From positions 1 through 44,654 of IMG/VR virus record IMGVR_UViG_3300025009_000180: a stretch of DNA of 44,654 nucleotides; one strand, 5' to 3'. Below are positions 6,262-41,900 of the stretch, piece by piece. Made by a program: the position numbers and the translations under genes. Positions within the stretch are counted from its first letter, which is position 1; each line of letters starts with the position of its first letter. The notes under the pieces were generated by a model. It saw only the letters and a list, made by a program, of their open reading frames with translations. It was not told the origin of the DNA and did not search any database. The DNA is from a virus.

Positions 6262-6314
6262 TGTTGATGGAAAAGTAAAATAATAAAATATAAATATTAA
6301 AGGAGAAATATGTT

Positions 6315-6725
6315 ATGAATACAAAATTACAAAAAATAACTAAAATGTTACAGGATGAAACACAATTACATATTTATAATATGAAGAAAATTGAACAAGA
6401 ATTAATTAATCAAGAAAAAAGTATGAAAAATGTTGATTGGAATATTGCAACAAACAATATTATTGCTGACAGTATCACTATTAAAGAAAATGGTGAAATA
6501 GTTTTAACAATAAATCAAGATGGTATTAAATTAACACCAAATAAAATAAATGAATTAAAAGAAGAAAACGAGGCAGATAAATTTATTAATTTTCTTTTGG
6601 ATTTAGATAAAAGAATAACAAAACTAGAAAATAATAATTTAGATAATGATATGAAGAATATTAGCAATAAAGTAGGAGAAAATATTTTTAATAGTTTAAA
6701 AAGAATGGATGTAAATATCAGATAA
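6315..6725 (+). CDS. hypothetical coiled-coil protein
   Basis: A 136-residue protein with ATG behind AAAGGAG. It starts with a long charged helix (TKMLQDETQLHIYNMKKIEQELINQEKS), has a short beta-like middle (GEIVLTINQDGIKLT) and ends with another heptad-like helix (LLDLDKRITKLENNNL). It probably oligomerises. No family is recognised. A hairpin follows its stop codon. Confidence 0.6.
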   Translation: MNTKLQKITKMLQDETQLHIYNMKKIEQELINQEKSMKNVDWNIATNNIIADSITIKENGEIVLTINQDGIKLTPNKINELKEENEADKFINFLLDLDKRITKLENNNLDNDMKNISNKVGENIFNSLKRMDVNIR

Positions 6726-7034: not shown

Positions 7035-7790
7035 ATGAAAGTAACATTATTAAATCCAGAACAAATCAAAAATATATTTAAAGAATGGGGATCATTCGCA
7101 TGTGAATGTTATGCAACTCCTCAAAAGTTTGCAGAAAAAGTAGGTAATAGTTGTTTTGAATCAGGTCATTATAGCGGAAGTAGAACTGAATATATTAAAT
7201 TTAAAATTGAAGGTATTGATCGTGGAATTAGTGAACAAATCATGCGACATGAAATAGGGGTAAGACAATTTCCTATAAGTGAATATACATATGATGAAAA
7301 TCCTAACAATATTATAAAAAATCTTAAATCATTTAGATATGTAGATATGAATGATTTTGATTATACTACGCCTATTACTATTGATAAGATACCAGAAGCA
7401 AAAGAAGAATATGATAGAATCAACAATGAAATAAACAAAAGTAGAATTAAAATTAAAGATATTTTAATTAATAACAAAGTAAAAGAAAAACAAGCAATAG
7501 AAGATTCTAATTATATTTTACCTAGAGCAACAAATACTACTTTAACTATTGGATTTACAATTGAAGCATTAATCCATTATATGCATAAGAGGTTATGTGT
7601 TAGAGCACAGGATTTACATAGAAAAGTTGCTATAATGATGAAAGAAGAAGTAATTAAAGTATTGCCACAATTAGAAGATAGATTAGTGCCACAATGTGAG
7701 TATCTATTATGGTGTCCAGAAGGTGATATGTCTTGTGGAATTAAACCTACTAGAGATGAATTAATGGATGAATTGTTTAAAATGAAATAA
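7035..7790 (+). CDS. thyX: flavin-dependent thymidylate synthase (ThyX-like)
   Basis: A 251-residue protein resembling ThyX, which methylates dUMP to dTMP with FAD and methylene-tetrahydrofolate. Recognisable blocks are CFESGHYSGSRTEYIKFKIEG (from residue 40), IMRHE (69-73), SFRYVDMNDFDYTTP (99-113), LPRATNTTLTIGFTIEALIHY and RLCVRAQDLHRKVAIMM in the C-terminal half. The signature RHRx7S is altered: RHE replaces RHR, the serine is one residue further (S82), and about 15 residues separate it from the SxRYV block. It may be a divergent but active enzyme or one with changed activity. The operon context of nucleotide enzymes supports a role in thymidylate supply. Confidence 0.8.
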   Translation: MKVTLLNPEQIKNIFKEWGSFACECYATPQKFAEKVGNSCFESGHYSGSRTEYIKFKIEGIDRGISEQIMRHEIGVRQFPISEYTYDENPNNIIKNLKSFRYVDMNDFDYTTPITIDKIPEAKEEYDRINNEINKSRIKIKDILINNKVKEKQAIEDSNYILPRATNTTLTIGFTIEALIHYMHKRLCVRAQDLHRKVAIMMKEEVIKVLPQLEDRLVPQCEYLLWCPEGDMSCGIKPTRDELMDELFKMK

Positions 7791-10636: not shown

Positions 10637-11673
10637 ATGTATGTGGCAGAAATCAGAAAGATAAAGAATGAAAAAAATGCTTGGACAATTGTTGTTTTTT
10701 TAGGTCGGGACGAAAACGGTAAAAAAATTACCAAAAGTAAAAAATTCAATGGTACAAAACCTGAAGCGAAACAATTTGCCACTATATTTGAAACACAACT
10801 TAAACAACAAAGTGGCAATTTAGATTGTACTATGTTTTTGGAAGATTATTTAAAATATTGGCTTGAAAGTATTAATGGTGAAATAGATGAAAGAACATTA
10901 GAAACTTATACTTATCATGTCAATAGATTAATACCTATTATTGGTAAAATTAAATTAATTGATCTTAGACTTTTATTATTAAGAGATAAATTAAAACATC
11001 TTAATGATGAATTAGCACCTAAGACAATTAAAGGTATTTATGGTACTTTGCGTACAGCAATAAGGAAAGCTATAGAATGGGAATTAATCAATAAAGATGT
11101 TACCCAAGGTTTAAAAGCACCTAAGAATGTTAGGAAAGATAGACAGGTATTCGTTTAAGTGAATGTTTAGGATTAAAATGGAGAGATTTAGATTTTTCTC
11201 AAAATACCATTACTATTCAAAGGGCAATAAATACTAAAACACGTACATTAAAAGATGGCACAAAAACCTTTAATAGTTTAAGAACAATTATCTTAGACAA
11301 AGGTACAATAGAGGTTCTTAAACAACATAAAGAAAATATTAAAGTTAGACCAATTAAATTTGATGAAACTTTAATTTTCAATGAAGATGATAGACCAGTA
11401 AGAGCGTATGCAGTAAATATTTGTTTGAAGCGTATCTTAAAGAAAGTTAACTTACCTGATATGAGAGTTCACGATCTAAGACATACAGCAGCATCTATTA
11501 TGTTGGATTCAGATTTCTCACTTGCAGAGGTAGCTTATTTACTTGGTGATACCATCGAAACAATAACTAGAACGTATGCTCACAAAGTTAAGAAGAGTCT
11601 TAATATTATTGATTCGATACAGTCCAAATTAGAATCTAAGCAATCCAAACTAGATTCCGTAAAATCCAAATAA
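10637..11673 (+). pseudogene. int: tyrosine integrase, broken by an internal deletion
   Basis: The first frame (10637-11158, 173 residues) holds an N-terminal arm-binding domain and a core-binding domain (ETYTYHVNRLIPIIGKIKL...). It stops at TAA 11156 after RKDRQVFV. The catalytic domain continues in another frame from about 11145: TGIRLSECLGLKW (first catalytic Arg), HDLRHTAAS (HxxR), YLLGDTIETITRTYAHK (catalytic Tyr), to TAA 11673. The usual 50-60 residues between the core-binding domain and TGIR are absent. The junction carries a single ACAGGT that encodes part of RQV in one frame and TG in the other, as expected for a deletion between two ACAGGT copies. The integrase is therefore probably inactive. 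The start may be ATG 10637 or GTG 10643. Confidence 0.85.
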
Positions 11674-11700: not shown

Positions 11701-11745
11701 TCCTTTAAATATAAAGTGGTCTGAACCGTTATATTTAAAGGATTT
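11698..11745 (+). terminator. terminator hairpin after the integrase remnant
   Basis: A perfect 17-base-pair stem (11698-11714 with 11729-11745) has a 14-base loop that itself contains GGT-CTGA-ACC. T-rich sequence follows on the plus strand. It would end the integrase transcript before the attachment core. Confidence 0.7.
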
Positions 11746-11758
11746 CTAGTTTATTTTA

Positions 11759-11786
11759 GGCAGGTTCGATTCCTGCCAGGCGTGCT
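11759..11786 (+). other. probable attP core: 3' end of a tRNA gene
   Basis: GCAGG-TTCGATT-CCTGC (11760-11776) is a canonical T-arm (5-bp stem, TTCRANY loop). It is followed by CAGGCGT, which fits the 3' strand of an acceptor stem. No 5' half of a tRNA is present, so this is not a tRNA gene but the piece that restores one on integration. It lies directly after int and between TCCAAA repeats. The tRNA identity is uncertain; Arg is a guess. Confidence 0.75.
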
Positions 11787-11912
11787 CAAAAACAATGAAT
11801 TGAAACTATACAGAAACACTGAAAAACCTAGTAATTACAAGGCTGAGACTAATCTTTAGAAGAAGTTAAGGTAAAATTAATTCATCCCTAAACGTCCATA
11901 GTAATCCCACTT

Positions 11913-12002: not shown

Positions 12003-12467
12003 CTACTCAGCATCTACCAAAATTTCCACGCAACTGTCACACAATTTTTTACTGATATTTTCTCCATCGTACACACTTCCATACTGTCCTTGCTGATTAA
12101 TATACCATATCTGTTCATCCTCACCAAAAACATAGCCACACTTATCACACCTAACCGGAATAGGTTTGCTCTCCGCACAACAAATAGAGATTATCTTATT
12201 ACCAAATTCATCTCTATATTTAACATCTACAACCGTAGTATACAAATCATCAGTAAGATTGGTTACTAAAATGATTTCTTCGATAGGTATGTATACTCTA
12301 CAATCTTTATCATATTCATCCATCAAGATTAAATCATTCTCGGTAACTTCATAGTTAAAGTCATAATAATTAAAAGTGATTCTTGATTCTCTGGTAGTTA
12401 CTTCTACTTTATGATTAACGAATTGATTGAGGTGATTGAGATTTGGGATTGAATTTAAATTTAACAT
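12003..12467 (-). CDS. zinc-ribbon protein, paralogue A of a duplicated pair
   Basis: A 154-residue protein. The N-terminal part is beta-rich and acidic, with NLTDDLYTTVVDVKY in the middle. The C-terminal part has a zinc ribbon: RCDKCGYVFGEDEQIWYIN (Cys pair) and KKLCDSCVEIL (second pair). It is clearly homologous to the protein at 33530-34027 over its whole length (shared NLTDD(L/F)Y, CxKCG, IWxIN, YGSxYD, CDSCV). The ATG follows AAAGGAGAG. A promoter with two ATTGCTAAAC repeats precedes it, and an RHH gene lies upstream in the same direction. Function unknown; a transcription or host-takeover factor is a guess. Confidence 0.7.
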   Translation of the reverse strand: MLNLNSIPNLNHLNQFVNHKVEVTTRESRITFNYYDFNYEVTENDLILMDEYDKDCRVYIPIEEIILVTNLTDDLYTTVVDVKYRDEFGNKIISICCAESKPIPVRCDKCGYVFGEDEQIWYINQQGQYGSVYDGENISKKLCDSCVEILVDAE

Positions 12468-12523
12468 AGTTGCACTCTCCTTTAAATTATTATTTATAAA
12501 GTAAAACTAATCTCTACAAACAT

Positions 12524-12564
12524 AGTATAAAGGATTGCTAAACAATGTACAACATTGCTAAACA
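12524..12564 (-). promoter_or_regulatory. promoter with direct-repeat operator for zinc-ribbon gene A
   Basis: Read on the minus strand, TTGTAC (12552-12547), 17 bases, TATACT (12529-12524). The -35 region is straddled by two direct repeats ATTGCTAAACA (plus-strand 12534-12544 and 12554-12564, 20-base period), one of them inside the spacer. They look like operator half-sites on one DNA face. Confidence 0.65.
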
Positions 12565-12565
12565 C

Positions 12566-12595
12566 GTAAAAATAACCATATTAACTGATATGGTT
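12566..12595 (-). terminator. terminator of RHH gene A
   Basis: AACCATAT (12574-12581) pairs with ATATGGTT (12588-12595). Read on the minus strand the hairpin begins four bases after the RHH stop codon and is followed by TATTTTTA. The RHH and zinc-ribbon genes are thus separate transcripts. Confidence 0.65.
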
Positions 12596-12598
12596 AGA

Positions 12599-12784
12599 TT
12601 ATTCTCTCTTTTTGTAATAATCCTTAAGAATACCATCTTTTTCTTCTATTCCTACAATCCTTTCCATTTCTATCCTTATAAAATCAGATAAAGTACGTTT
12701 ATGATATTCCGCAATTTTTTCTAATTTATCTTTAAATCTTGGTGTTACTCTTATTCCTATTTGAACCTTTTTTGTTGTAGTCAC
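12599..12784 (-). CDS. ribbon-helix-helix DNA-binding protein A
   Basis: A 61-residue protein of the Arc/MetJ/CopG ribbon-helix-helix class: strand KVQIGIRVTPRF, helix KDKLEKIAEYHK, turn RTLSDF, helix IRIEMERIVG, then a charged tail. An in-frame ATG at 12802 lies between the -10 box and the expected transcription start, so it cannot be used; GTG 12784, seven bases after GGGAGAG, is the start. A similar 50-residue RHH protein lies at 34185-34337, also upstream of a paralogous zinc-ribbon gene. It is probably a repressor of its own and neighbouring promoters. Confidence 0.8.
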   Translation of the reverse strand: MTTTKKVQIGIRVTPRFKDKLEKIAEYHKRTLSDFIRIEMERIVGIEEKDGILKDYYKKRE

Positions 12785-12804
12785 ATAATCACTCTCCCAC
12801 ATAT

Positions 12805-12833
12805 ATTATAAACCGATATGTATTATCTATCAA
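12805..12833 (-). promoter_or_regulatory. proximal promoter of RHH gene A
   Basis: Minus-strand TTGATA (12833-12828), 17 bases, TATAAT (12810-12805). ACATAT and ATATGT, inverted around the -10 region (plus-strand 12800-12822), form a possible operator. Confidence 0.75.
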
Positions 12834-12845
12834 TGTGAAAGGTTT

Positions 12846-12917
12846 ATTTGTTAATAGGATTTGTTAATTTAATAGATTTATTAATATTATAATACAATAA
12901 AAGAATAGATATGTCAA
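12846..12917 (-). promoter_or_regulatory. distal promoter and direct repeats upstream of RHH gene A
   Basis: Minus-strand TTGACA (12917-12912), 17 bases, TATTAT (12894-12889) gives a second promoter. Between it and the proximal promoter are two direct copies of ATTTGTTAAT (plus-strand 12846-12855 and 12859-12868). A 23-base stretch upstream of it (12928-12950) recurs upstream of RHH gene B (34444-34466). Confidence 0.6.
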
Positions 12918-13049
12918 GTAAATTTATAATATATTTATTTTTATATTCTAATAGATTTTTGTTTATTTTTTATTTAGAGTGGAAAGGGATAATTTTTTAA
13001 ATAATTTTACAAAATTTAATAAAAAATAGGTATATTTTTTATGTCAATA

Positions 13050-14357: not shown

Positions 14358-15620
14358 TTAATCAACAACTAAATTTCTAGTATTATATAATTTACCAAAA
14401 TCATAATCCTTTTTAAACTTACTAGTTTCATATGTACTATTATCAATATCAAAAACTACCCTATGAAATCCTTCATCAAATAATAATTTAGAATCATTAA
14501 TTATTTTAAAAATCATTACATCTGAAGGTAATTTATCTTTTCTAGATATTATTCTTATTTCTTTCCAATTTCTGTTTAATAAAAAATATGTTCTCCTTCT
14601 TTCATTTTTCTCAAATTCTTCCATTGTTTTTATGCCAAATGTTACACTTAACCAATGTCCAGAAAAATCTGTTTCAATATAAATTTTATCATTAGGAAAC
14701 GCAATATCCATAAAACATATATTATTATTTTCTTGAAGTGGATAATTTAATTGACCATTTAATAATTTACAAACATATCTTTGTTGTTTAGAACTAGTTA
14801 TTGAATTATTATTATATATAGATTGTGCATATTTAATTTTAAATTCTTCTGTTTTAGAATAATTATCCACTCCATATTTATCTAAACATGTTTGTTTTAT
14901 TCTTTCTTTACATTCATCTGTTTGTGTATAACTTTCTACTCCGTATCTATCAAGAGATGTTTGTCTAACTTTTTCTTTGTATTCATCTGTTTTTGAATAA
15001 TGTTCTTCACCATATCTTTCTAAAGTAGTTTGTTTTATTTTATCTCTAGTTTCTTCTAATTGCCATATATGATTTACTCCATATTTATCTTGACATGTAT
15101 TCTTATATCTTTCCTTAAATTCATCTGTTTTAGCATAACTATCAACACCATATCTTTCTTCCATTGTATCTCTTGTTTTTTGTAATAATTCTGGTGATTG
15201 ACCACTATACATAACTCCATGATTTTCTACCATTGAATTTATAAATTTCTCCCTTATTTCTGGAATTTGTTGAGTTGATCTAACATTATAATTATTCATA
15301 TTGCTTTCAATTATTTTTATATACTTATGTTCTTCACAACAATCTTTAACAAAATTCCTTTTTAAAGTTTTATTATATTCTTTTACTTGCTTCCAACATA
15401 TAGTTAATTTACCTTCTTCAAAACAGTAATCACACAACACAGGTATTTTCAAATCACTACTAGGAGGTAAATCTTTTATTTTTACTTTGATTGTTGTTCC
15501 TCTTTTAACTGTCCAATTACGAGATGAATTTTTAGTTCTAGGTATTTCGTATCCTAAATTTTCAAAATGCTTAATATATTTATTATTTAACACAACTCTA
15601 ATTTCTTCTTGTAACAACAT
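14358..15620 (-). CDS. DUF723-repeat putative endonuclease
   Basis: A 420-residue protein. The N-terminal 90 residues contain a possible zinc knuckle (VLCDYC...CCEEH). The middle (about 105-265) has six repeats of about 24 residues with the pattern T..ERYGV..Y..T.E.KE...QT, the DUF723-type DNA-binding repeat of phage homing proteins. The C-terminal third (SSKQQRYVCKLLNG...CFMDIAFPNDKIYIETDFSGH...RRRTYFLLNRNWKEIRI) resembles a PD-(D/E)XK/Vsr-like nuclease with D and E-x-D residues. I infer a homing endonuclease. It starts at ATG behind GGTGATGA and probably shares a transcript with genes upstream on the minus strand. Confidence 0.65.
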   Translation of the reverse strand: MLLQEEIRVVLNNKYIKHFENLGYEIPRTKNSSRNWTVKRGTTIKVKIKDLPPSSDLKIPVLCDYCFEEGKLTICWKQVKEYNKTLKRNFVKDCCEEHKYIKIIESNMNNYNVRSTQQIPEIREKFINSMVENHGVMYSGQSPELLQKTRDTMEERYGVDSYAKTDEFKERYKNTCQDKYGVNHIWQLEETRDKIKQTTLERYGEEHYSKTDEYKEKVRQTSLDRYGVESYTQTDECKERIKQTCLDKYGVDNYSKTEEFKIKYAQSIYNNNSITSSKQQRYVCKLLNGQLNYPLQENNNICFMDIAFPNDKIYIETDFSGHWLSVTFGIKTMEEFEKNERRRTYFLLNRNWKEIRIISRKDKLPSDVMIFKIINDSKLLFDEGFHRVVFDIDNSTYETSKFKKDYDFGKLYNTRNLVVD

Positions 15621-25992: not shown

Positions 25993-26517
25993 TCAATTTT
26001 CAATATAGATTATATCATCCATATTTCTACTCCTACTATATCTACTATTTGCTTTATCCAAACCATCAACAACTTCATCTTCTACAACAGTAAACTTCAT
26101 TCTAACTGTTTTAGGTAATGGCACATTACTATTAGTATATTCTAAATTTTTACTTACAAACAAGTAATAAGTTTCCCCTACTATCCATTTCCTTGATGGT
26201 GGACTAACCGTTACAACTTTAGGATTATTTTTAGTAATTCTAACTGTTACTTTAACTTTATTCTCACCATTTTCATCAGTTGTAACATAAACATTTTTTG
26301 ATAGATTCCTTGATTTAGGTTCTTTTTCTCTAAATGTTATTGTCCATATTTTTTCTTTTGTTATTGTTCTATCAGCATAATCATTATATTCATTATATAC
26401 TGATTCCGCAACTGAATTTGAATTTGCATATGAAGTATTTGATTGTATTGAGAATAGTAAACCTGATAAAATAAATACCGTTAACATAATAAGATAGTTT
26501 TTTGTTTTTTGATTCAA
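25993..26517 (-). CDS. secreted Ig-like (Big_5/SbsA-type) protein, copy 1
   Basis: A 174-residue protein with a Sec signal peptide (basic start MNQKTKNY, hydrophobic LIMLTVFILSGLLFSI, cleavage near SYANS). An Ig-like domain follows with KIWTITFREKE, NLSKNVYVTTDENG, VTVSPPSRKWIVGETYYLFVSKNL and VRMKFTVV, as in SbsA/Big_5 domains. The start is TTG behind GGAGAGG. It is one of three tandem paralogues, each with its own promoter and terminator. Secreted single-domain Ig proteins in a tail region suggest a lysogenic-conversion or host-surface role; a structural role cannot be excluded. Confidence 0.75.
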   Translation of the reverse strand: MNQKTKNYLIMLTVFILSGLLFSIQSNTSYANSNSVAESVYNEYNDYADRTITKEKIWTITFREKEPKSRNLSKNVYVTTDENGENKVKVTVRITKNNPKVVTVSPPSRKWIVGETYYLFVSKNLEYTNSNVPLPKTVRMKFTVVEDEVVDGLDKANSRYSRSRNMDDIIYIEN

Positions 26518-26548
26518 TAATATCCTCTCCTTTTATAGTAATTTATTT

Positions 26549-26577
26549 ATTTTATCATATAAAATTACAAATGTAAA
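26549..26577 (-). promoter_or_regulatory. promoter of Ig-like copy 1
   Basis: Minus-strand TTTACA (26577-26572), 17 bases, TAAAAT (26554-26549). The spacer end TTATATGA and -10 are identical in all three Ig-like genes. Confidence 0.75.
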
Positions 26578-26611
26578 GATAGTTATTATTGACATTTATT
26601 ATATAATAATA

Positions 26612-26646
26612 ATAATAAAAACTACCTAAAATTAATTAGGTGGTTT
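26612..26646 (-). terminator. terminator of Ig-like copy 2
   Basis: Minus-strand AACCACCTAA and TTAGGTAGTT (one mismatch) are followed by TTTATTATTATTATTA. It is homologous to the hairpin after copy 1. Confidence 0.7.
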
Positions 26647-26671
26647 TAGAATTATTGATATTATTAATATA

Positions 26672-27184
26672 CTATTTAATCATACTATCTTCATCTTCTA
26701 TATTCCTACTGTATGTTTTATTTACATTAATTGCAATATCTTTTTCATCTATAATAGTAAACTTCATTCTAACTGTTCTTGGCATTGTTGTTTCCCCTGT
26801 TATTAATTTAATATTTTTATCAACAAATAAATAATATACTTTTCCTGCAATCCAACCTTTTGATGGAGGACTTAATAACATAGATTTACTAGGATTATCT
26901 GGATTTATTTTAACTTTTGTTCTACTAACTTTATTCTCACCATTTTCATCAGTTGTGACATAAATATACTTAGATAAATTAGTCATTTGCATATCTTCTT
27001 CAAATGTTATTATCCATATTCTATCAGTTGGAATATTTGTTCTATTCGCATATACTGTATAAACATTATAAACATTATTTACTACTGATGTTCCTGCAAA
27101 AACTTGTTTAGAATTCATTACACAAAATAAACTTAATACGCTTAATAATAACAATACTGTTATAAAACATTTTTTTAAACTCAA
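26672..27184 (-). CDS. secreted Ig-like protein, copy 2
   Basis: A 170-residue paralogue of the adjacent genes: signal peptide MSLKKCFITVLLLLSVLSLF with cleavage near VFAG, then RIWIITFEEDM, NLSKYIYVTTDENGENKV, LSPPSKGWIAGKVYYLFVDKN, and VRMKFTIIDEK. After the Ig-like domain a polar tail ends YSRNIEDEDSMIK. The start is TTG behind GGAGAGG, as in copy 1. It has its own promoter (27217-27245) and terminator (26612-26646). Confidence 0.75.
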   Translation of the reverse strand: MSLKKCFITVLLLLSVLSLFCVMNSKQVFAGTSVVNNVYNVYTVYANRTNIPTDRIWIITFEEDMQMTNLSKYIYVTTDENGENKVSRTKVKINPDNPSKSMLLSPPSKGWIAGKVYYLFVDKNIKLITGETTMPRTVRMKFTIIDEKDIAINVNKTYSRNIEDEDSMIK

Positions 27185-27216
27185 TAATATCCTCTCCTTT
27201 TTAGTAATTTATATAG

Positions 27217-27245
27217 ATTTTATCATATAAGATTACAATTGTAAA
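27217..27245 (-). promoter_or_regulatory. promoter of Ig-like copy 2
   Basis: Minus-strand TTTACA (27245-27240), 17 bases, TAAAAT (27222-27217), within the same conserved segment as copies 1 and 3. Confidence 0.75.
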
Positions 27246-27291
27246 GAGTATTATCATTATTAACACTTATTATTAATATTTATTATATATA

Positions 27292-27332
27292 TATCAATAA
27301 AAAACTACCTAAGATTAATTTTAGATAGTTTT
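27292..27332 (-). terminator. terminator of Ig-like copy 3
   Basis: Minus-strand AAAACTATCTAA and TTAGGTAGTTTT pair with one wobble, followed by TTATTGATA. It lies about 90 bases after the present stop codon of copy 3 but directly after the relic of its old C-terminus. Confidence 0.65.
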
Positions 27333-27416
27333 AGAATTATTAATATACTATTCAATCATATTTCTTTCATCTATATTGTGAATATTCTTACTGTGTATTT
27401 TATTTATTATTTCTTC

Positions 27417-27857
27417 TTATTCATTTATTATAGTAAATTTCATTCTTACTGTTTTTGATAAATAAGTTTCACCATTTATTTTTTTTATATTCTTATTTAT
27501 AAACAAATAATATACTTTTCCAGATACCCAACCTTTCGGTGGAGGATAAAGCAATATAGAATATCCAGGACTACTAACTGTATTTCCTTTAACTTTTACT
27601 CCTTTAACTTTATGTTTTTCATTTTTATCAGTTGCAATATATATATATTTAGATAAATTGCTTTTACTTATGTCCATTTCTTCCCTAAACATTATTCTCC
27701 ATATCTTATCGGTTGGCACATCTAATTTTTCCGAATAAACAGTGTATATTACTGAAGATTCTGCAAAAACTGGTTTTGAATTAATTACATAAAACAAACT
27801 TAATACTACTAATGACATTAAAGATACTGTAAAATATTTTTTGATATTTTGATTCAA
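27417..27857 (-). CDS. secreted Ig-like protein, copy 3, C-terminally truncated
   Basis: A 146-residue paralogue: signal peptide NQNIKKYFTVSLMSLVVLSLF with cleavage near VFAE, then KIWRIMFREEM, NLSKYIYIATDKNEKHKV, YPPPKGWVSGKVYYLFINKN, VRMKFTIINE. TTG 27857 is the start by homology with copies 1 and 2; ATG 27917 lies in the promoter. The TAA at 27417-27419 is followed in the same frame by 22 more codons (27348-27416, EEIINKIHSKNIHNIDERNMIE) that align with the tail of copy 2. A nonsense change has therefore removed the C-terminal tail while the Ig-like domain stays intact. Confidence 0.75.
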   Translation of the reverse strand: MNQNIKKYFTVSLMSLVVLSLFYVINSKPVFAESSVIYTVYSEKLDVPTDKIWRIMFREEMDISKSNLSKYIYIATDKNEKHKVKGVKVKGNTVSSPGYSILLYPPPKGWVSGKVYYLFINKNIKKINGETYLSKTVRMKFTIINE

Positions 27858-27888
27858 TAATATCATCCCCTTATTTAGTAATTTAGTA

Positions 27889-27917
27889 ATTTTATCATAT
27901 AAAATTACTTTTATCAA
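27889..27917 (-). promoter_or_regulatory. promoter of Ig-like copy 3
   Basis: Minus-strand TTGATA (27917-27912), 17 bases, TAAAAT (27894-27889). It has the better -35 of the three copies, with the same spacer end and -10. Confidence 0.75.
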
Positions 27918-33529: not shown

Positions 33530-34027
33530 TTAGAATTTACCAGTCAATTCACCAATTTCTCCAACGAATCCAGCAACACAACTATCACAAAAAGATAAAC
33601 TATTAACAATAGAGTTTTCTTCATGATCATCATAATAACTTCCATAATTTGCATTACCATTAATTCTCCAGATTGTCTCATCAGGGGTCAGTATCTCTTT
33701 ACCACATTTATAACATCTAGGATAGATAAATTTTCTTTCTAACGTACAAACGCCCACTATGTAGTCATTAGTTTTAATAGAAACCACATCAAAATAAAAA
33801 TCATCTGTCAAATTACTCACTAAATTAACCTTACTTAACTCAATAGAAGTTAACACACAATCATCATCTGATTGATCTTGAAGTTGGATATATTCATCTG
33901 TTAATTGGTAGGAGAATGAATTATAAACGTAAGTTGCTGATAAGGTGTTGTCTAACAGAGTATGAAAACTAACTTCACATTTCTTGTCATTGAATTGGTC
34001 TAATAAACTATAATTTTTCTTTTCCAT
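33530..34027 (-). CDS. zinc-ribbon protein, paralogue B of a duplicated pair
   Basis: A 165-residue paralogue of the protein at 12003-12467. It shares the acidic beta-rich N-terminal part, NLVSNLTDDFYFDVVSIK, the first Cys pair PRCYKCGKEI, ETIWRINGNANYGSYYDD and the second pair FCDSCVAGF, and ends with an extra EIGELTGKF. ATG 34027 is used; the in-frame ATG at 34045 overlaps the GGAGG site. It has its own promoter, and an RHH gene lies upstream in the same direction, as in module A. Function unknown. Confidence 0.7.
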   Translation of the reverse strand: MEKKNYSLLDQFNDKKCEVSFHTLLDNTLSATYVYNSFSYQLTDEYIQLQDQSDDDCVLTSIELSKVNLVSNLTDDFYFDVVSIKTNDYIVGVCTLERKFIYPRCYKCGKEILTPDETIWRINGNANYGSYYDDHEENSIVNSLSFCDSCVAGFVGEIGELTGKF

Positions 34028-34091
34028 AATAATAAAAACCTCCATTTAATTTAATTATAAGGCTTACAACCAAAATCAACCTTATAATCAT

Positions 34092-34120
34092 ATTATACTA
34101 GAGGAGTTAACTATAATCAA
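34092..34120 (-). promoter_or_regulatory. promoter of zinc-ribbon gene B
   Basis: Minus-strand TTGATT (34120-34115), 17 bases, TATAAT (34097-34092). Repeated ATGGTTAAC and ATGGTTGAT just upstream of the -35, and a GTTAACTAT/ATAGTTAA inverted pair, are possible operator elements. Confidence 0.7.
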
Positions 34121-34184
34121 CCATTGTTAACCATGATATAGAACGATATAGTTAATTTACAACCCAGTACCAACCATATACTAC

Positions 34185-34337
34185 TTATTTTCTTTCATTT
34201 TCTAAATATTGCATTAAAATATACCTAACTAAATCAGGTAGTGTCATTCCTTTTAATTCTGCTAATATTTCATATTCACTTTTAAATTTATTAGTTACCC
34301 TAACAGATATTAGAGCTTTTTGTTGTCTTTTTTCCAT
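34185..34337 (-). CDS. ribbon-helix-helix DNA-binding protein B
   Basis: A 50-residue Arc/CopG-type protein: strand QKALISVRVTNKF, helix KSEYEILAELKG, turn MTLPDL, helix VRYILMQYLENERK. ATG 34337 follows AGGAGTGTG. The pattern ISVRVTxKFK...TLxDxxR...ME matches RHH protein A (IGIRVTPRFK...TLSDFIRIEME), so they are paralogues. It is encoded upstream of zinc-ribbon gene B. A 15-base palindrome lies in its promoter, suggesting autorepression. Confidence 0.8.
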   Translation of the reverse strand: MEKRQQKALISVRVTNKFKSEYEILAELKGMTLPDLVRYILMQYLENERK

Positions 34338-34363: not shown

Positions 34364-34392
34364 ATTATATACTAAGTATATGTATTTTTCAA
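34364..34392 (-). promoter_or_regulatory. proximal promoter and operator palindrome of RHH gene B
   Basis: Minus-strand TTGAAA (34392-34387), 17 bases, TATAAT (34369-34364). The palindrome ATATACT-A-AGTATAT (34367-34381) fills the spacer, an ideal place for repressor binding by the RHH product. Confidence 0.75.
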
Positions 34393-34416
34393 AAGTATAG
34401 GAATGAATCTACAATT

Positions 34417-34445
34417 ATATTAACATACTTATCACACAAAGTCAA
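34417..34445 (-). promoter_or_regulatory. distal promoter of RHH gene B
   Basis: Minus-strand TTGACT (34445-34440), 17 bases, TAATAT (34422-34417). It matches the position of the distal promoter in module A, and the upstream 23-base A-rich stretch (34444-34466) is identical to that in module A (12928-12950). Confidence 0.6.
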
Positions 34446-34549
34446 TATATTTATTTTTATATTCTATTCATTTTAAAATAAAATTAGTAAATATCAATTT
34501 AAATTTTCTCAATTATTTAAAATAAAACCTTTCAATTAAATCCAACATA

Positions 34550-35080: not shown

Positions 35081-35839
35081 TTAATTTAGTAACTGGAATT
35101 TATAGCGAAATTGAATTGTACATGAACCAACAATACTCAGATTATTAATACTATATTTTAAGAAATATAAATAATTATCGTTGAAATTTCCAAATCTACT
35201 TATATTCAAAGAACTGATAATATCCTCATTTTCACAATCTAAATAAATTTCCTCACCATTTTCCAACCCAGTAAATTTTAATTCAATTCCAGAATTTGTA
35301 TTATTTACTATGCTAAGATCGCCATCTCCAACTTTAACAATTTCCATTTCAGGATATAAATCCACATCACCAATATTTTCAAACTCTATAGTCCCACTAT
35401 CAGTAATTGTATATACTTCAGACAAATACTCACTTGTATAAATATAAGGTGATTTACACAATAATTGAAACTTCACATATCCATTTATTCCAGTATGAAA
35501 TAAACTAGGATCACCTTGATACATCACATAATATATCTTATCTAAATCATCTGAAAATATCATAGGACAATAATAATTTTGATTAAACAATCTTCCCAAT
35601 GCACGTAATTTATCTGAAGTTATATCATCTTCAAAAGCCAAAGTTACATCTAATACTCTTGGAGAAGGTTTTTTTGTTTGATAATATGGTTCATCTCTAT
35701 CTCTAATATTTGTTGTTATAATTTCTCTACTTGGTAAAAATTGTTCTTCATATAATCCACTTTCAACACTACAATTTATAATTCCATAATCTGTTGAATT
35801 TTCTCCGTTAAATGTAAAATATAAACTTGATTTATACAT
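35081..35839 (-). CDS. distal tail protein (Dit)
   Basis: A 252-residue siphovirus distal tail component: YFTFNGENSTDYGIINCSVESG, PSREIITTNIRDRDEPYYQTKKPSPRVLDVTLAFED, LRALGRLFNQNYYCPMIFSDD, IYYVMYQGDPSLFHTG and GYVKFQLLCKSPYIYT are typical of the N-terminal ring domain. The C-terminal part is a galectin-like beta domain. It forms the hexameric hub between tail tube and tail tip. Its position directly after the tape measure gene is canonical. ATG 35839 is preceded by AAGGTGGTGA at a long distance (13 bases). Confidence 0.9.
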   Translation of the reverse strand: MYKSSLYFTFNGENSTDYGIINCSVESGLYEEQFLPSREIITTNIRDRDEPYYQTKKPSPRVLDVTLAFEDDITSDKLRALGRLFNQNYYCPMIFSDDLDKIYYVMYQGDPSLFHTGINGYVKFQLLCKSPYIYTSEYLSEVYTITDSGTIEFENIGDVDLYPEMEIVKVGDGDLSIVNNTNSGIELKFTGLENGEEIYLDCENEDIISSLNISRFGNFNDNYLYFLKYSINNLSIVGSCTIQFRYKFQLLN

Positions 35840-35918: not shown

Positions 35919-38900
35919 TTATATTTTTTTCCCCATACTTTTCATTCCATTAACAATTTCATTAAATACAGTTTTACCTCCATTTTTATCGCCTGTTACA
36001 TTATCAATCCTTAAGTTTAAATTGTACACAGTGTCACTACTTGCTATTGCATTTGCAGGAGTAAAGTTGCTTAAAATATTACTCATATTCATATTAGGTA
36101 AATTAAAATTATTCATCAAATTAGTTGGGAAAGATTTAACTACATCTAAAAAATTAGGTAAATAATCTTTTAATTTGAGCATTGCAGATGTTTGATGTGC
36201 ATCCAATACCATTTCTGGTTCTTCTGGAGTGCCATCTAACCAATGGTATCCTGTTTCTGTATTTAATCCACCAGATTTATACTTTCTACCACTAGTAGCA
36301 TGTCCAGTATATTCCTTACCAGTCATTGAACTTATGAATTTACCTTCTACAACAGAATATACATATATATCTTTGGTAGTATTATATAATATAGGGTCTA
36401 ATATATCTGAATCAGTTTCACCATGATAATATTTATCATCTATTATCAAATATTCACTTAAAGATTGCGGATTAATATTATTAGTATTTAAATCAGAAGG
36501 GTTATTGTTATTATTACTAGTACTAGAAGCATTAGAATATTCAAGTACACTAGGAATAGTAGGTGTATTAATACGAATATCACCAATACTTTTAAATGCA
36601 GTTGCGATATTATTAACATAAGTTGTTACTTCAGTATCAAATTTAACTAATCCTGCTGTAACATTACCATACCAAGTATTAGTTATTTCATCAAAAGTAG
36701 CAGTACCATTAGTTACTGATTCAATTATTTTATCCCATTTTTCTGATTCTAATGTCCAAGCATCATCTAAATTAGTTTTTCTTAATTCTATATCATCGTT
36801 AAATGAATCTTTTTGATCATTAATTGCTTGTTTCTGCAATTCTCTACTTCTATCTAATTTAAATTCTTCTATTTCAATATCTTTCTCATTTAACTCTTTA
36901 GTTAAGTCATTTCTTTTAGATTTTGCTTCATAACTATTATTTAACAATGTTTCATCATATTTTCTTTGAATATCATTACGATCTTTTTGTTTCTTTAGTA
37001 ATTCCTTATCATAATCTTCTGTACCTTGGGAAGTATCTAAATTTTTAAGTTTTGCTTCAACATTTTTATTATACGCATCTAATTCATCATCCAAATTCTT
37101 AATCTGCTCATCGTGATATTTACTAGCAACATCTTTTAGCTCATTTAAACCATCTATTGCTTTATCAAAATTAAATTGCTCTGCTTCTTGATTTAAATTA
37201 TAAAAACTAGTTACAGATTCTTGTAAATCTGAATTCCATTGTTCTAATAATTCATTTCTTTTTTCATCACTTAAACCAGGATTATTAATATCAATATTTT
37301 TTATCTTATCTTTTATTGTATTAATTTCACCTAATGTTACAATTGCTTTTGCTAATGTATTTTTTAACTTACCTTCAACATCATCTTCATCTATTAAACT
37401 TCCTGCAAAATCTAAATCAGATAATTCTGTTTTAAATTTTTTAATAGAATCATCAAAGTTTCTAATTGCTTTTTCAGATATTATATTTTCTAACTTATCT
37501 TTTGTAGATACAATCTCTAAATCAACATCTTGCATAGCATCAGTAAATTGAGTCACTAATGTTCCAGCAGATATTTTTTGTTCTTCTGTTGAATTAGAGT
37601 CATTTAATACAGCATTCCATTTGTCTATCTCATTTTGCAATGTATATTTCTTTGTAAAGAGATAATCCTTAATATCGTTGGTGTATTTATCTAATTGTGC
37701 ATATTCATCATCAGTATTTATATCACCTAATAATGATATATTATTATTTAGATTGCTAATTGGATTATCTAATTGTGATAATTTAATATCTGCATAAGTA
37801 TTAGATAGTTCAATAATTTTATTTTGATTATCCTCAATATCTTGAGTTAGTTTAGTTATCTCAGCATCTAAATCTATCCAAGCGGTACTAGACTTATCAG
37901 ATATCGCATCTCTTTTAGCAATCAATCCATTAATTTCTGCTTGTTTTTGTGCAATACCTTCTAATGCATCACCTTGTTCCACAAAACTATCGGCAATTGA
38001 CCAATCTGTGAAAAAGTTTTTAATTTTCTCATTAGTTTCTTTATAAGCAGTAGATGTCTTATCTAAACCTACTAATTCGTTTTGTAAATCAGAATAATCT
38101 CTTGCTAATACTTTTACTAATGATGAATTATTTTGTAACTCTTCATTATATTCATTCCATTTATCAGGATTTTTTACTTTATCTGTTTTTGCTAATTTAT
38201 CTTGCAATGAAATATAATCAGTTACTTTTTGTTTAAGTGATTTATTATCATCTTCATATGAATAATTTCCATCTGTACCTGAAAGCATATTCATATTATC
38301 TTTAGTATTACTAATATCAAAAGTGAATATATCTTTATATTCTTTTTGCAATATTTTTAAATTATTCTTTGCTTCTTTTATTGATTCTTTATTACCATTA
38401 CTTAATGCATTATTATAAGTTCTGATTGAATCATTAACTATAGTTAAATCTTTCTCATCTCCAAAATTAGTAAGTTCATCTATTTTCTTTCCGCTATTTA
38501 TTGACCTTAATAAATTATCATTAGTTTTTTTGTTATTTATAGCTGTTTGATTATCTTTTCCTAATTCTTTATATTTAGATAAATCAGTATTTGCTATAGT
38601 AACATTTGCTTTATTATCTTCTAGTATTTTCCTATTTGCTATATAATCTTCTAAATTTTTATTTGCTTCTTTATATTCTTTAGAATCCACTCCATATTTT
38701 GCTTTAGCATTATCTAGTGAAGTTATTAAAGTTGATTCACCATCTATATACAATGCATCTTTTAATTCCTTTCCAACTTCTAATACACCTGTTAAAACAT
38801 TATTTACTTTTTCTAATTTGTCAATATAATTATCAGGAGAAGTAGAATTAAGAATATCTAAATCAAATAAATTTTTATCAATATTATATAGTTTTCTAGT

Positions 38901-41900
38901 TTCTTCAATCTGCTTATCTATCAAACTAAATTCATAATCATATCTATCTTTAATTGTTGATTTTAATTTAGTTTCATAAGATAATACTAAATCATAATAT
39001 TTTTTTGCTTCTGCATTTGCTTCATTGTATAAATCTGAACCATTTTTATGTCCTTCTCTTTCTTTTATCCATTTATCAACATTTGCACTTGCTGTTTCTA
39101 TTGCTTTGTTTATTAATTCTATATTTAAACTATATTGAAATAATGACTTTTCTTCTAAAGTCATATTTCCTACACCACTAGCATAACCAGGAATAGGGAT
39201 AATTTTATTACCAGCAAGTATTTCTTCAGTTTCTTTGTTAGGAATTACTTTTGTACCTGTAGGCAATGTTGTAAATTCTGCACCATTATTACCTGAAATA
39301 GCAACTTTTCCATCAGGATAAATTAACAATTCACGACCTTTTTCTGATATTACAGCCATTCCACCAGGATGTGAATTAGTACCAGTTGCACTTCCACCTA
39401 TTTTTTCACCATAATTGTTCCAATTTCCACCACTATCATTTGAATCTTCACTACTAGATGAACTTTTAACTTTAATACTACTAATAATATCTTTTACTGC
39501 ATCTGCAATTTTATTAAATCCTGATTTAGTTATTTCAAGAATATTATTCATTCCACTTTGATAAATAATATTTTGATCATTAAAATGATTTATGGTTTCA
39601 TCATTAGTAATTTTTAAATTTTCACTAGTTACATTTAACTGTTCATTCTGATTATCTTTTTGCATAGTGATAATATCAGAATTAAATTGATCATATATTT
39701 TCTTTCTTTCTTCCTGATTACCATTTTCAGATTCTATTAGTTTATTAACATCTGACATTTTCTGTTCATTAGTTAAATTACCATTATTTAATATGATATT
39801 AATATTAGATAAGAAATTTTGATAATCTAAAAATAGACTTTTCATGGTATCTAAATGAGTGATTAATTGTTGTTGTTCTAAACTTTGTTGCTCTTTTTGC
39901 TGTTCAATCATTTGGTCGCCAATAGTTTTTTCTATATCTAGTTTATCATTTTGATATTCTTCTTCAATATCTAAACCATATTTTTGTTCATCTGATAATT
40001 GTGCTTTAGATTTTGCCAAACTTTCTTTATCAACAGTAAATGCAGTAGTTAACTCTATACCTGAAACAGAGCCTCCACTAAGCATATCAATATTATGCTC
40101 AACTGCTTCAATTTGATTGTTTATTTCTTGCATTGCTTCATCTGTTTGAGATGCAAGTTTATCTAATTTAATTTTATCTAATTGCTTCTGATATTCAGCA
40201 TTTGCTTTAGTATTTTCTTTTACTGCATTTTTAAGATAAATAATTCTATCTGCATATATTTGTGCAGTTTTTGCATCTGTAGTATGAGTATTAGATAATT
40301 TTTCTATTTCATCATTATATTGTCTAGTTAATTTACTAGATGCAGAAATTTGATTGTTTATTAGTGTTAATTTTGTATTGAAATCAGTGCCAGAGAGCAA
40401 ATCAAAATTATATTTAAGATTAGATAATTTATTGTTTAATGGAGTTAACTGTTTATCAAATGCATCAAATTGAGATTGTATTATTGATAGAGAATTAGAG
40501 GATATGGTATTGTTTAGATCGATGTATTCTTTTTTTAATTCTGATAATTGCTGTTTTTTATTGTCTAAATCAATTCCTTGCAATTTACCAGAGTTAATTT
40601 CTGCTGTAATAAGATCAATATTTGCTTTCTTTAGTGTTAATATATTAGATAATGAATTATTCTGTAGAGATAATTCATTTCTATATTGTGATGATGTCTG
40701 AACTAAAGATTCTATTTTTGATTTTGATATTTCTATTGAGTTATTGTACTCTTTTATTCTTTCATCATTCTGATTTAATCCAAAATCTAATAATTCATTA
40801 TCTTTAGAATTAACATTACTTTTTGCTTCAGCAATTTGAGTAGGTAATAAATAGTCTCTTTTTTCTATTAATTTAGCTAAATAATCCTTGTCAAACCATT
40901 TACCTTCATCAATTGCTTGTTCAATATTTGCAATGGCTTGTTCTGTTTGCGCTAATTCTGCTTCACGTTGTTTTAATACTTTTTCATTATTATTTCTTTG
41001 TACCTGTACTTCATTTTTATATGCATATGAAGTTTTAGACATAGTTTCAGATAATGCTTTAGATAAATTGTTTTTATCTTCAAATATTTTTACTATATTA
41101 TCAGATTCATTCCATAAATCATCATACCATTCCTTAGATGCATTAATATTTTCTTTTTCTAATTTTAATATTTCTGCATTAATTTCTTCTTGATGTTTAA
41201 CTCTATCTTCTAATATTTTTTCATATGATAATTCTGATTTAGATAAATTAACAGAAGTGGGGGATAGACTGTATTTTTTAGTATTTTCATAAACATCTTT
41301 AGCATAATTTCCAGTTGTACTACCACCATATTTCTCTAAACCTTGTGTTAAATCTCCACCAGATTTTTGTATTCTATCTACAAGATATTCTACTCCACGT
41401 TGAATATTTAATTCTGGATCAAATGCATTGCCACCACCTACTTCTTTCCAAGTATTACCAGTTATTGTTATAAAACCATTACAAGATGCTATCCATGTTT
41501 TATTTTCAACAGAAGGACACCAAACTGGTTGAGATTCAACTAAATCGTAATTTAATCTAAAATTTGAAGCATAAGTAGTTTTTCTTTTTTGAACAAAACA
41601 TGAATATTGTTTTTTACAATGATATTCATTTCCTAAAATATTATATATTCCTTCTTCTCTGTAAGAATTAATTGTAGATAATTTACCGAGTAGAAATAAT
41701 AATGTTTGTACGTCAATAATTCTATCATAATCAGATTGTTTAAAAGATTCCCAACCTTTATTGCTAATATTACCATCAGATTCTAAAAGTCCTTGCCACA
41801 ATATTTCTGCTTGCTCTTTAGTAATAGATAAAAGTAATTCCATTGACAATCTTTTTTTACCATCTATAAAAATATATTTACTTAATTTAAGTGCTTCTTC

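Follow-up and report, generated by a model that had tools for sequence, protein, structure and literature searches.

Judged by architecture, the closest described counterpart of the cassettes considered here appears to be Regp576/EGeRS2, which underlies establishment-gene regulation in the Bacillus plasmid p576, of clade II of the pLS20 family (PMC8708921). Regp576 is a ribbon-helix-helix (RHH) repressor. The establishment genes have separate promoters, each with direct repeats just above its -35; Regp576 binds these, and expression is transient as a result (PMC8708921). A second relevant system is acr-aca, in which anti-CRISPR-associated (Aca) proteins repress the promoters of anti-CRISPR (acr) genes in phages (PMC9410906). 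Here aca usually comes after acr in one operon, under one strong promoter with inverted repeats and the binding site in its core. A third is the MrpR/SPBRE regulon of phage SPbeta, where MrpR, a protein with a recombinase-like fold, is the master repressor (PMC10516654). The logic of a repressor plus an effector is already known, as are the RHH, HTH and zinc-ribbon folds.

Here, we describe by computation the architecture of a group of phage cassettes, the exchange of regulators and effectors among them, promoter DNA that follows the regulator, and a conserved 5' stem-loop. The stretch analysed, referred to below as the window, comes from an uncultivated phage, IMGVR_UViG_3300025009_000180, and comprises 44,654 bases with 25% GC. 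The phage is large and low in GC, and it is distantly SPbeta-like, since its distal tail protein (Dit, 35081-35839) is 35-37% identical to counterparts in an Alicyclobacillus phage and in Bacillus phages of the SPbeta type; one sister contig is 106 kb. An initial annotation had placed in the window two modules, A and B, each with an RHH gene followed by a zinc-ribbon (ZnR) gene, and both are present, on the minus strand:

12599..12784, minus strand: RHH-A, small ribbon-helix-helix DNA-binding protein, 61 aa (profile matches)
12003..12467, minus strand: ZnR-A effector, 154 aa, with an N-terminal beta-rich domain and a C-terminal zinc ribbon (alignment)
34185..34337, minus strand: RHH-B, small ribbon-helix-helix DNA-binding protein, 50 aa (profile matches)
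33530..34027, minus strand: ZnR-B effector, 165 aa (alignment)

Module A lies between the integrase/attachment region and a DndB-domain gene, and module B between Dit and the minor-tail/fibre genes. The two pairs are paralogous, as the annotation had it: ZnR-A and ZnR-B share 38% identity over 156 aa (E 4e-24), and RHH-A and RHH-B 42% over 33 aa (E 7e-8). RHH-A has a GTG start, with an in-frame upstream ATG possible at 12802. The RHH proteins match Pfam NikA-like (5e-4)/DUF6290, below curated cut-offs, PHROG Arc/CopG-like repressor profiles (about 6e-4 to 5e-3) and phrog_22139 (1.4e-7); these matches are weak but agree with one another on an RHH protein. The two CxxC knuckles of a zinc ribbon (CxxC...CxxC) are present in ZnR, their four cysteines being conserved in five of five aligned proteins and readable in a sixth. 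The family had gone unrecognised, and indeed ZnR has no family match in Pfam, PHROG, NCBIfam or PADLOC. No acr-like family is among the matches to these four collections, and no tie of ZnR or of the alternative effector C (see below) to any defence system was found.

Relatives of ZnR were found only in IMG/VR contigs from one metagenome series (3300024999-3300025011), and none was found in reference phages, plasmids or one-per-species genome contigs. These sister contigs and the window hold 17 related cassettes, each consisting of a small regulator, an effector promoter, a 5' stem-loop and an effector. The effector is ZnR-A (window, G001, G006), ZnR-B (window, G003 = G002 = G004, G005) or C, which consists of two proteins in succession, of 107 aa and 67 aa (C107 + C67), and is present in ten or more contigs; for C107, too, phages and genome contigs yielded no relatives. 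The regulator is one of four kinds of RHH protein, RHH-A to RHH-D, or one of several Cro/CI-type HTH proteins (Pfam HTH_3/HTH_26 above cut-off). Between the regulator gene and the effector gene lie 110-183 bp, and a strong promoter there serves the effector alone. Partners are shuffled. ZnR is found in six distinct cassettes, with an RHH regulator in three and a Cro/CI-type HTH in the other three, so ZnR commonly does without an RHH partner, one of the two findings that the initial annotation had named as refuting its view; RHH-B and RHH-C, for their part, sit before a different effector, RHH-B occurring with ZnR-B in the window and with C in L044 (RHH-B about 92% identical). The layout first proposed, a small DNA-binding regulator beside an effector with its own promoter, in a duplicated unit, is supported; an obligate RHH–ZnR pair is rejected.

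Effectors also replace one another in place. C cassettes take the position of ZnR at the same locus in sister phages, and some sister contigs carry both. In the Dit–tail fibre interval, the window has ZnR-B, while G003 and G005 have C cassettes. A trace of one such event is visible at the end of the ZnR-B gene:

33530..33561, minus strand: recombination junction at the ZnR-B 3' end (94% over 32 bp to G005 6299-6328)

Over its final ~10 codons (...ELTGKF), the ZnR-B gene matches the end of C67 in sister phages, at the 3' side, and homology to the C67 region of G005 extends downstream to 33354. Module B thus looks like the product of effector replacement within an existing cassette.

Both ZnR genes have their own promoter, with 17-bp spacing and repeats at the -35, in agreement with the initial annotation:

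12524..12552, minus strand: ZnR-A promoter, TTGTAC-17-TATACT (sequence)
34092..34120, minus strand: ZnR-B promoter, TTGATT-17-TATAAT (sequence)
12537..12562, minus strand: TTTAGC as a direct repeat (20 bp apart) that straddles the ZnR-A -35; predicted operator of RHH-A (sequence)
34106..34131, minus strand: GTTAAC as a direct repeat (20 bp apart) that straddles the ZnR-B -35; predicted operator of RHH-B (sequence)

The RHH-A operator is predicted from its resemblance to that of RHH-B, because RHH-A is represented by one instance only. The pattern KTTARC-N14-KTTARC, a 20-bp direct repeat chosen after the sites were seen, occurs at both ZnR -35s and nowhere else in the window (expected 0.24). 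In RHH cassettes the -35 is non-consensus (TTGTAC, TTGATT, TTGTAT, TTGTAA); in HTH cassettes it is TTGAC(A/T/G). None of the four RHH subfamilies has TTGACA as its -35, and in each this hexamer lies inside or beside subfamily-specific repeats, which are direct and 20 bp apart for RHH-A and RHH-B and dyads for RHH-C (TGGGTTAAC...GTATACCCA) and RHH-D (TTTGTTATcAC...GTaATAACAAA). No clear repeat was seen at the effector promoters of HTH cassettes. Placed as they are at the -35, the repeats would fit repression by occlusion.

If these sites are operators, their closest match in design is again Regp576. Both would then have an RHH repressor with direct-repeat operators at the -35. Both have separate strong effector promoters and effectors that vary mosaically, and the transient burst on entry described for Regp576 is proposed for the cassettes. 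The direct-repeat architecture of Regp576 is present for RHH-A and RHH-B, whereas RHH-C and RHH-D have dyads. The repeats also differ in placement, those of the cassettes being 20 bp apart and straddling the -35, those of Regp576 TTATCCCnnTTATCCC. Regp576 is one RHH protein for several promoters plus its own; each cassette has one regulator, possibly an HTH protein, and control of the regulator's own promoter is not evident. The cassettes resemble acr-aca in that a small phage accessory protein lies beside a small DNA-binding protein, here a putative repressor, in drawing on several HTH families for the regulator, and in a strong promoter whose core would hold the binding site, given the candidate repeats that straddle the -35 in RHH cassettes. 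Unlike acr-aca, with its one promoter for acr and then aca, they have the regulator first, an effector with its own promoter and interchangeable RHH and HTH regulators; their proteins gave no match to an acr or aca family.

The DNA around the effector promoter goes with the regulator. For 16 non-redundant cassettes, we aligned the part of this promoter that begins 30 bp upstream of the -35 and ends with the -10. Similarity in this part tracked regulator identity (Mantel r = 0.63, p = 0.0002) and showed no relation to effector identity (r = -0.04, p = 0.66). For example, module B of the window (RHH-B + ZnR-B) and L044 (RHH-B + C) have unrelated effectors and promoter regions that are 92% alike, with 47 consecutive identical bases (about 34101-34147 in the window) that contain the predicted RHH-B operator, GTTAAC-N14-GTTAAC around the -35. 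Similarly, the promoters of G003 (HTH + ZnR-B) and L068 (HTH + C) are 91% alike. Where the effector is the same and the regulators differ, promoters are 43-62% alike, no better than unrelated pairs (mean 56%), and the ZnR-B genes that stand behind HTH regulators (G003, G005) have DNA in common with the window only from about the -10 onward. These observations suggest that a regulator brings its operator along when it is exchanged. Linkage combined with preferred recombination in the conserved -10/hairpin/RBS region could be an alternative or additional cause; in that case the operator would stay with the regulator without selection.

Upstream of each RHH gene, the two promoters reported earlier can be read from the sequence as sigma-A-like:

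12889..12917, minus strand: distal promoter of RHH-A, TTGACA-17-TATTAT (consensus match only)
12805..12833, minus strand: proximal promoter of RHH-A, TTGATA-17-TATAAT, with TACATA conserved in the spacer (sequence)
34414..34445, minus strand: distal promoter of RHH-B, TTGACT...TAATATAAT (consensus match only)
34364..34392, minus strand: proximal promoter of RHH-B, TTGAAA-17-TATAAT, holding a 15-bp palindrome at 34367-34381 (sequence)
12928..12950, minus strand: 23-mer upstream element of the module A distal promoter (exact match to 34444-34466; 10 bp upstream of the -35)
34444..34466, minus strand: 23-mer upstream element of the module B distal promoter (abuts the -35)
12846..12868, minus strand: candidate site for RHH-A in the promoter region of its gene, a direct repeat with two copies of ATTAACAAAT (sequence)

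The 23-mer had been singled out because it precedes both distal promoters. It does so with an exact match at both sites, and its four matches at <=3 mismatches (0.08 expected) are well beyond chance; what fails is its specificity to the modules. As a module-specific operator it was rejected, since the same arrangement precedes distal promoters of HTH, Bro and P63C genes, as well as one further gene in G005. For most cassette regulators there is a distal promoter whose -35 either abuts the 23-mer or lies 10 bp below it, and the element is best read as a general, UP-like element of the phage.

The proximal promoter is likewise shared. Nearly all regulators, of either fold, have one with TACATA in the spacer, together with a GGAG-type ribosome-binding site. 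DNA 84% identical to the RHH-B proximal promoter precedes an HTH gene in G001, the 15-bp palindrome has a counterpart before HTH regulators, and the promoter is about equally similar before RHH and HTH genes, so that the palindrome finds no support as an RHH operator. Autoregulation, proposed initially, is not supported: the regulator's own promoter is largely conserved irrespective of the regulator, with a weak dependence (Mantel r = 0.3, p = 0.01), and regulator-specific DNA is found at the ZnR promoter instead. No clear regulator-specific site was seen in the regulators' own promoters, except for the candidate repeats before RHH-A, where two TTAACAAA copies lie at 12847-12854 and 12860-12867. 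A search for TTARCAA as a genome-wide operator was uninformative (45 matches, 31 expected). The proximal promoter is best read as a point of common control, without regulator specificity. By analogy, the TACATA...TATAAT promoter could be a common-control element comparable to SPBRE; both systems belong to large SPbeta-type phages and have repeated promoter elements. MrpR, though, is a master repressor, whereas the cassette RHH and HTH proteins are local and diverse.

At the expected transcription start, effector leaders begin with a stem-loop-forming sequence, typically TTTATAAGG...CCTTATAAA. In the window these are:

12493..12520, minus strand: 5'-terminal stem-loop of ZnR-A mRNA, 9-bp stem (predicted; alone z = -0.7)
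34054..34088, minus strand: 5'-terminal stem-loop of ZnR-B mRNA (predicted)

Taken together, the leaders have a summed MFE of -104, against -50 +/- 7 in dinucleotide shuffles (0 of 300 as low), and three of the eight pairs of the leader stem show compensatory changes; single leaders, such as those of ZnR-A in the window and in G001, are not significant alone. A pattern combining promoter and hairpin finds 13 sites in twelve contigs and loci, all but one of them cassette effectors (12/13). The ZnR-A site of the window escapes this pattern, its -10 and its stem being divergent. Stem-loops at the 5' terminus stabilise mRNA in E. coli and B. subtilis, according to work referenced in PMC3997798.

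The two effector families may have a fold in common. The AlphaFold model of C107 (pLDDT 88) has one helix and eight strands. Foldseek returns weak PH/ChuX-like PDB matches for it (E >= 0.02), and at E < 1e-3 three viral proteins with no assigned function, one of them from Listeria phage LMTA-57. The ZnR model is poor (mean pLDDT 48) and had no significant match in a PDB search; its N-terminal domain shows, within the limits of that model, the same order of helix and eight strands. Five PDB matches (6u9j, 2ph0, 5exv, 2ovi, 3u12) are common to the ZnR N-terminal domain and C107, and a profile comparison of the two found nothing. It is possible, on these models, that the ZnR N-terminal domain and C107 represent one fold.

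We consider it probable that the window holds a mosaic accessory-gene cassette twice, as modules A and B, and that this cassette, in the manner of Aca and Reg(p576) systems, gives a burst of effector followed by shut-off by the neighbouring repressor. In such a unit, strong promoters would drive a small DNA-binding protein, and next to it a separate strong promoter, with the operator of that protein around its -35, would yield an mRNA that starts with a stem-loop and encodes the effector, here ZnR. When phage DNA enters a repressor-free cell, host RNA polymerase would transcribe an mRNA that is protected by its hairpin and translated well, and effector would appear in a burst. Meanwhile the regulator would accumulate, bind the repeats overlapping the effector -35 and turn the promoter off, thereby keeping a strong promoter inside the tail-gene region from staying on. 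Binding at the repeats, repression and timing are what we infer from this arrangement. The effector, in turn, may act against host defence or competing phages, in anti-defence or superinfection exclusion.

It is also possible, if rather unlikely, that these are lysogenic-conversion (moron) cassettes, whose effector is an immunity or superinfection-exclusion protein expressed by the prophage at a level set by the regulator in the lysogen. Accessory genes with their own promoters inside a block of tail genes would suit this idea, as would the distant SPbeta-type affiliation of the phage and the morphogenesis genes around module B. Steady prophage expression is conceivable, moreover, since module A adjoins an attP-like sequence resembling a tRNA 3' end and an integrase gene. 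Yet the integrase in the window is interrupted, and very strong promoters paired with a repressor suggest transient rather than steady expression.

Less plausible still is that ZnR works as a transcription factor of the phage (a zinc ribbon that binds RNA polymerase, for instance), with the cassettes serving as the early/late or lysis-lysogeny switches that the initial annotation had suggested. Nucleic acid and RNA polymerase are common ligands of small zinc-ribbon proteins, and anti-repressor (Bro/Ant) genes neighbour several cassettes. But ZnR has no family match to transcription factors (Pfam, PHROG, NCBIfam) and is replaced at the same locus by C107 + C67, which has no zinc ribbon. A core switch would not be expected to differ between near relatives as the cassettes do, both in number and in regulators. 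One to two of them, with unrelated regulators, lie among the tail genes of each sister phage, and no evidence for lysis-lysogeny control was found.

A toxin-antitoxin pair, with RHH as antitoxin and ZnR as toxin, is very improbable: the RHH gene does lie upstream of a small partner gene as in type II systems with RHH antitoxins, there is a weak likeness of RHH-B to RelB antitoxins (NCBIfam, with an E of 2e-5 that is below cut-off) and a PIN_3-domain gene pair adjoins the C cassette in G003 and L038, but where type II systems have a toxin-binding region and a fixed cognate toxin, the 50-aa RHH-B is a bare RHH core with almost no tail, regulators are exchanged between unrelated effectors, the effector has a promoter of its own at the gene spacing given above, and the exchange of regulators of different folds before one effector argues against a conserved protein-protein antitoxin.

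Returning to the burst-and-shut-off cassette, two elements are undescribed in the open-licence literature that we searched. One is the effector families, ZnR and C, for which the reference collections searched yielded no relatives; the other is that regulators whose folds are unrelated change places, presumed operators included, before one effector module. More tentatively, phages of this group may use interchangeable RHH and HTH repressors, each with its own operator, before a common promoter/5'-hairpin/effector module, and ZnR and C (possibly of one PH-like fold) may be a new protein family for anti-defence or superinfection exclusion. The exchange of regulators points to an off-switch of the plug-in type, which would limit a phage accessory protein to short bursts. 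Natural swaps, of the same regulator with different effectors and the reverse, make regulator-operator pairs directly testable. If our reading is correct, the promoter and 5'-hairpin signature would offer a handle for finding accessory, possibly anti-defence, genes in low-GC phages; regulatory sequences have been used likewise in archaeal viruses (PMC11065993).

Finally, several other features of the window and its relatives deserve mention. The tyrosine integrase (10637-11673) is interrupted near 11158, with its N-terminal part and C-terminal catalytic part in different frames. Just downstream of it, at about 11745-11800 and adjoining module A, GGTTCGATTCCTGCCAGGCGTGC resembles a tRNA 3' end (attP-like). 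Separately, searches for Rfam families and tRNAs gave no match. Divergent from module A is the gene for a DndB-domain (DNA sulfur modification-associated) phage protein (13110-14312; PF14072, 5e-14), and a DUF7487 protein with repeated ERYGVDSY-type motifs is encoded at 14358-15620. The phage encodes an aspartate/ornithine carbamoyltransferase (1996-2970) and a ThyX thymidylate synthase (7035-7790), and three tandem paralogous secreted-protein genes (25993-27917), one with a Big_5 Ig-like match (E 0.0013). The tape-measure protein (35919-44483, 2854 aa) has M23 and SLT domains, the latter split by a LAGLIDADG-containing, intein-like insertion. Among the relatives, Bro/anti-repressor genes flank the cassettes of L014, L022 and L025 and are perhaps relevant to cassette control. 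The pairs adjoining C cassettes, each a small ORF and a PIN_3-domain gene (toxin-antitoxin-like), lie at L038 4665-5376 and G003 60491-61148, the latter preceded by a 23-mer distal promoter.
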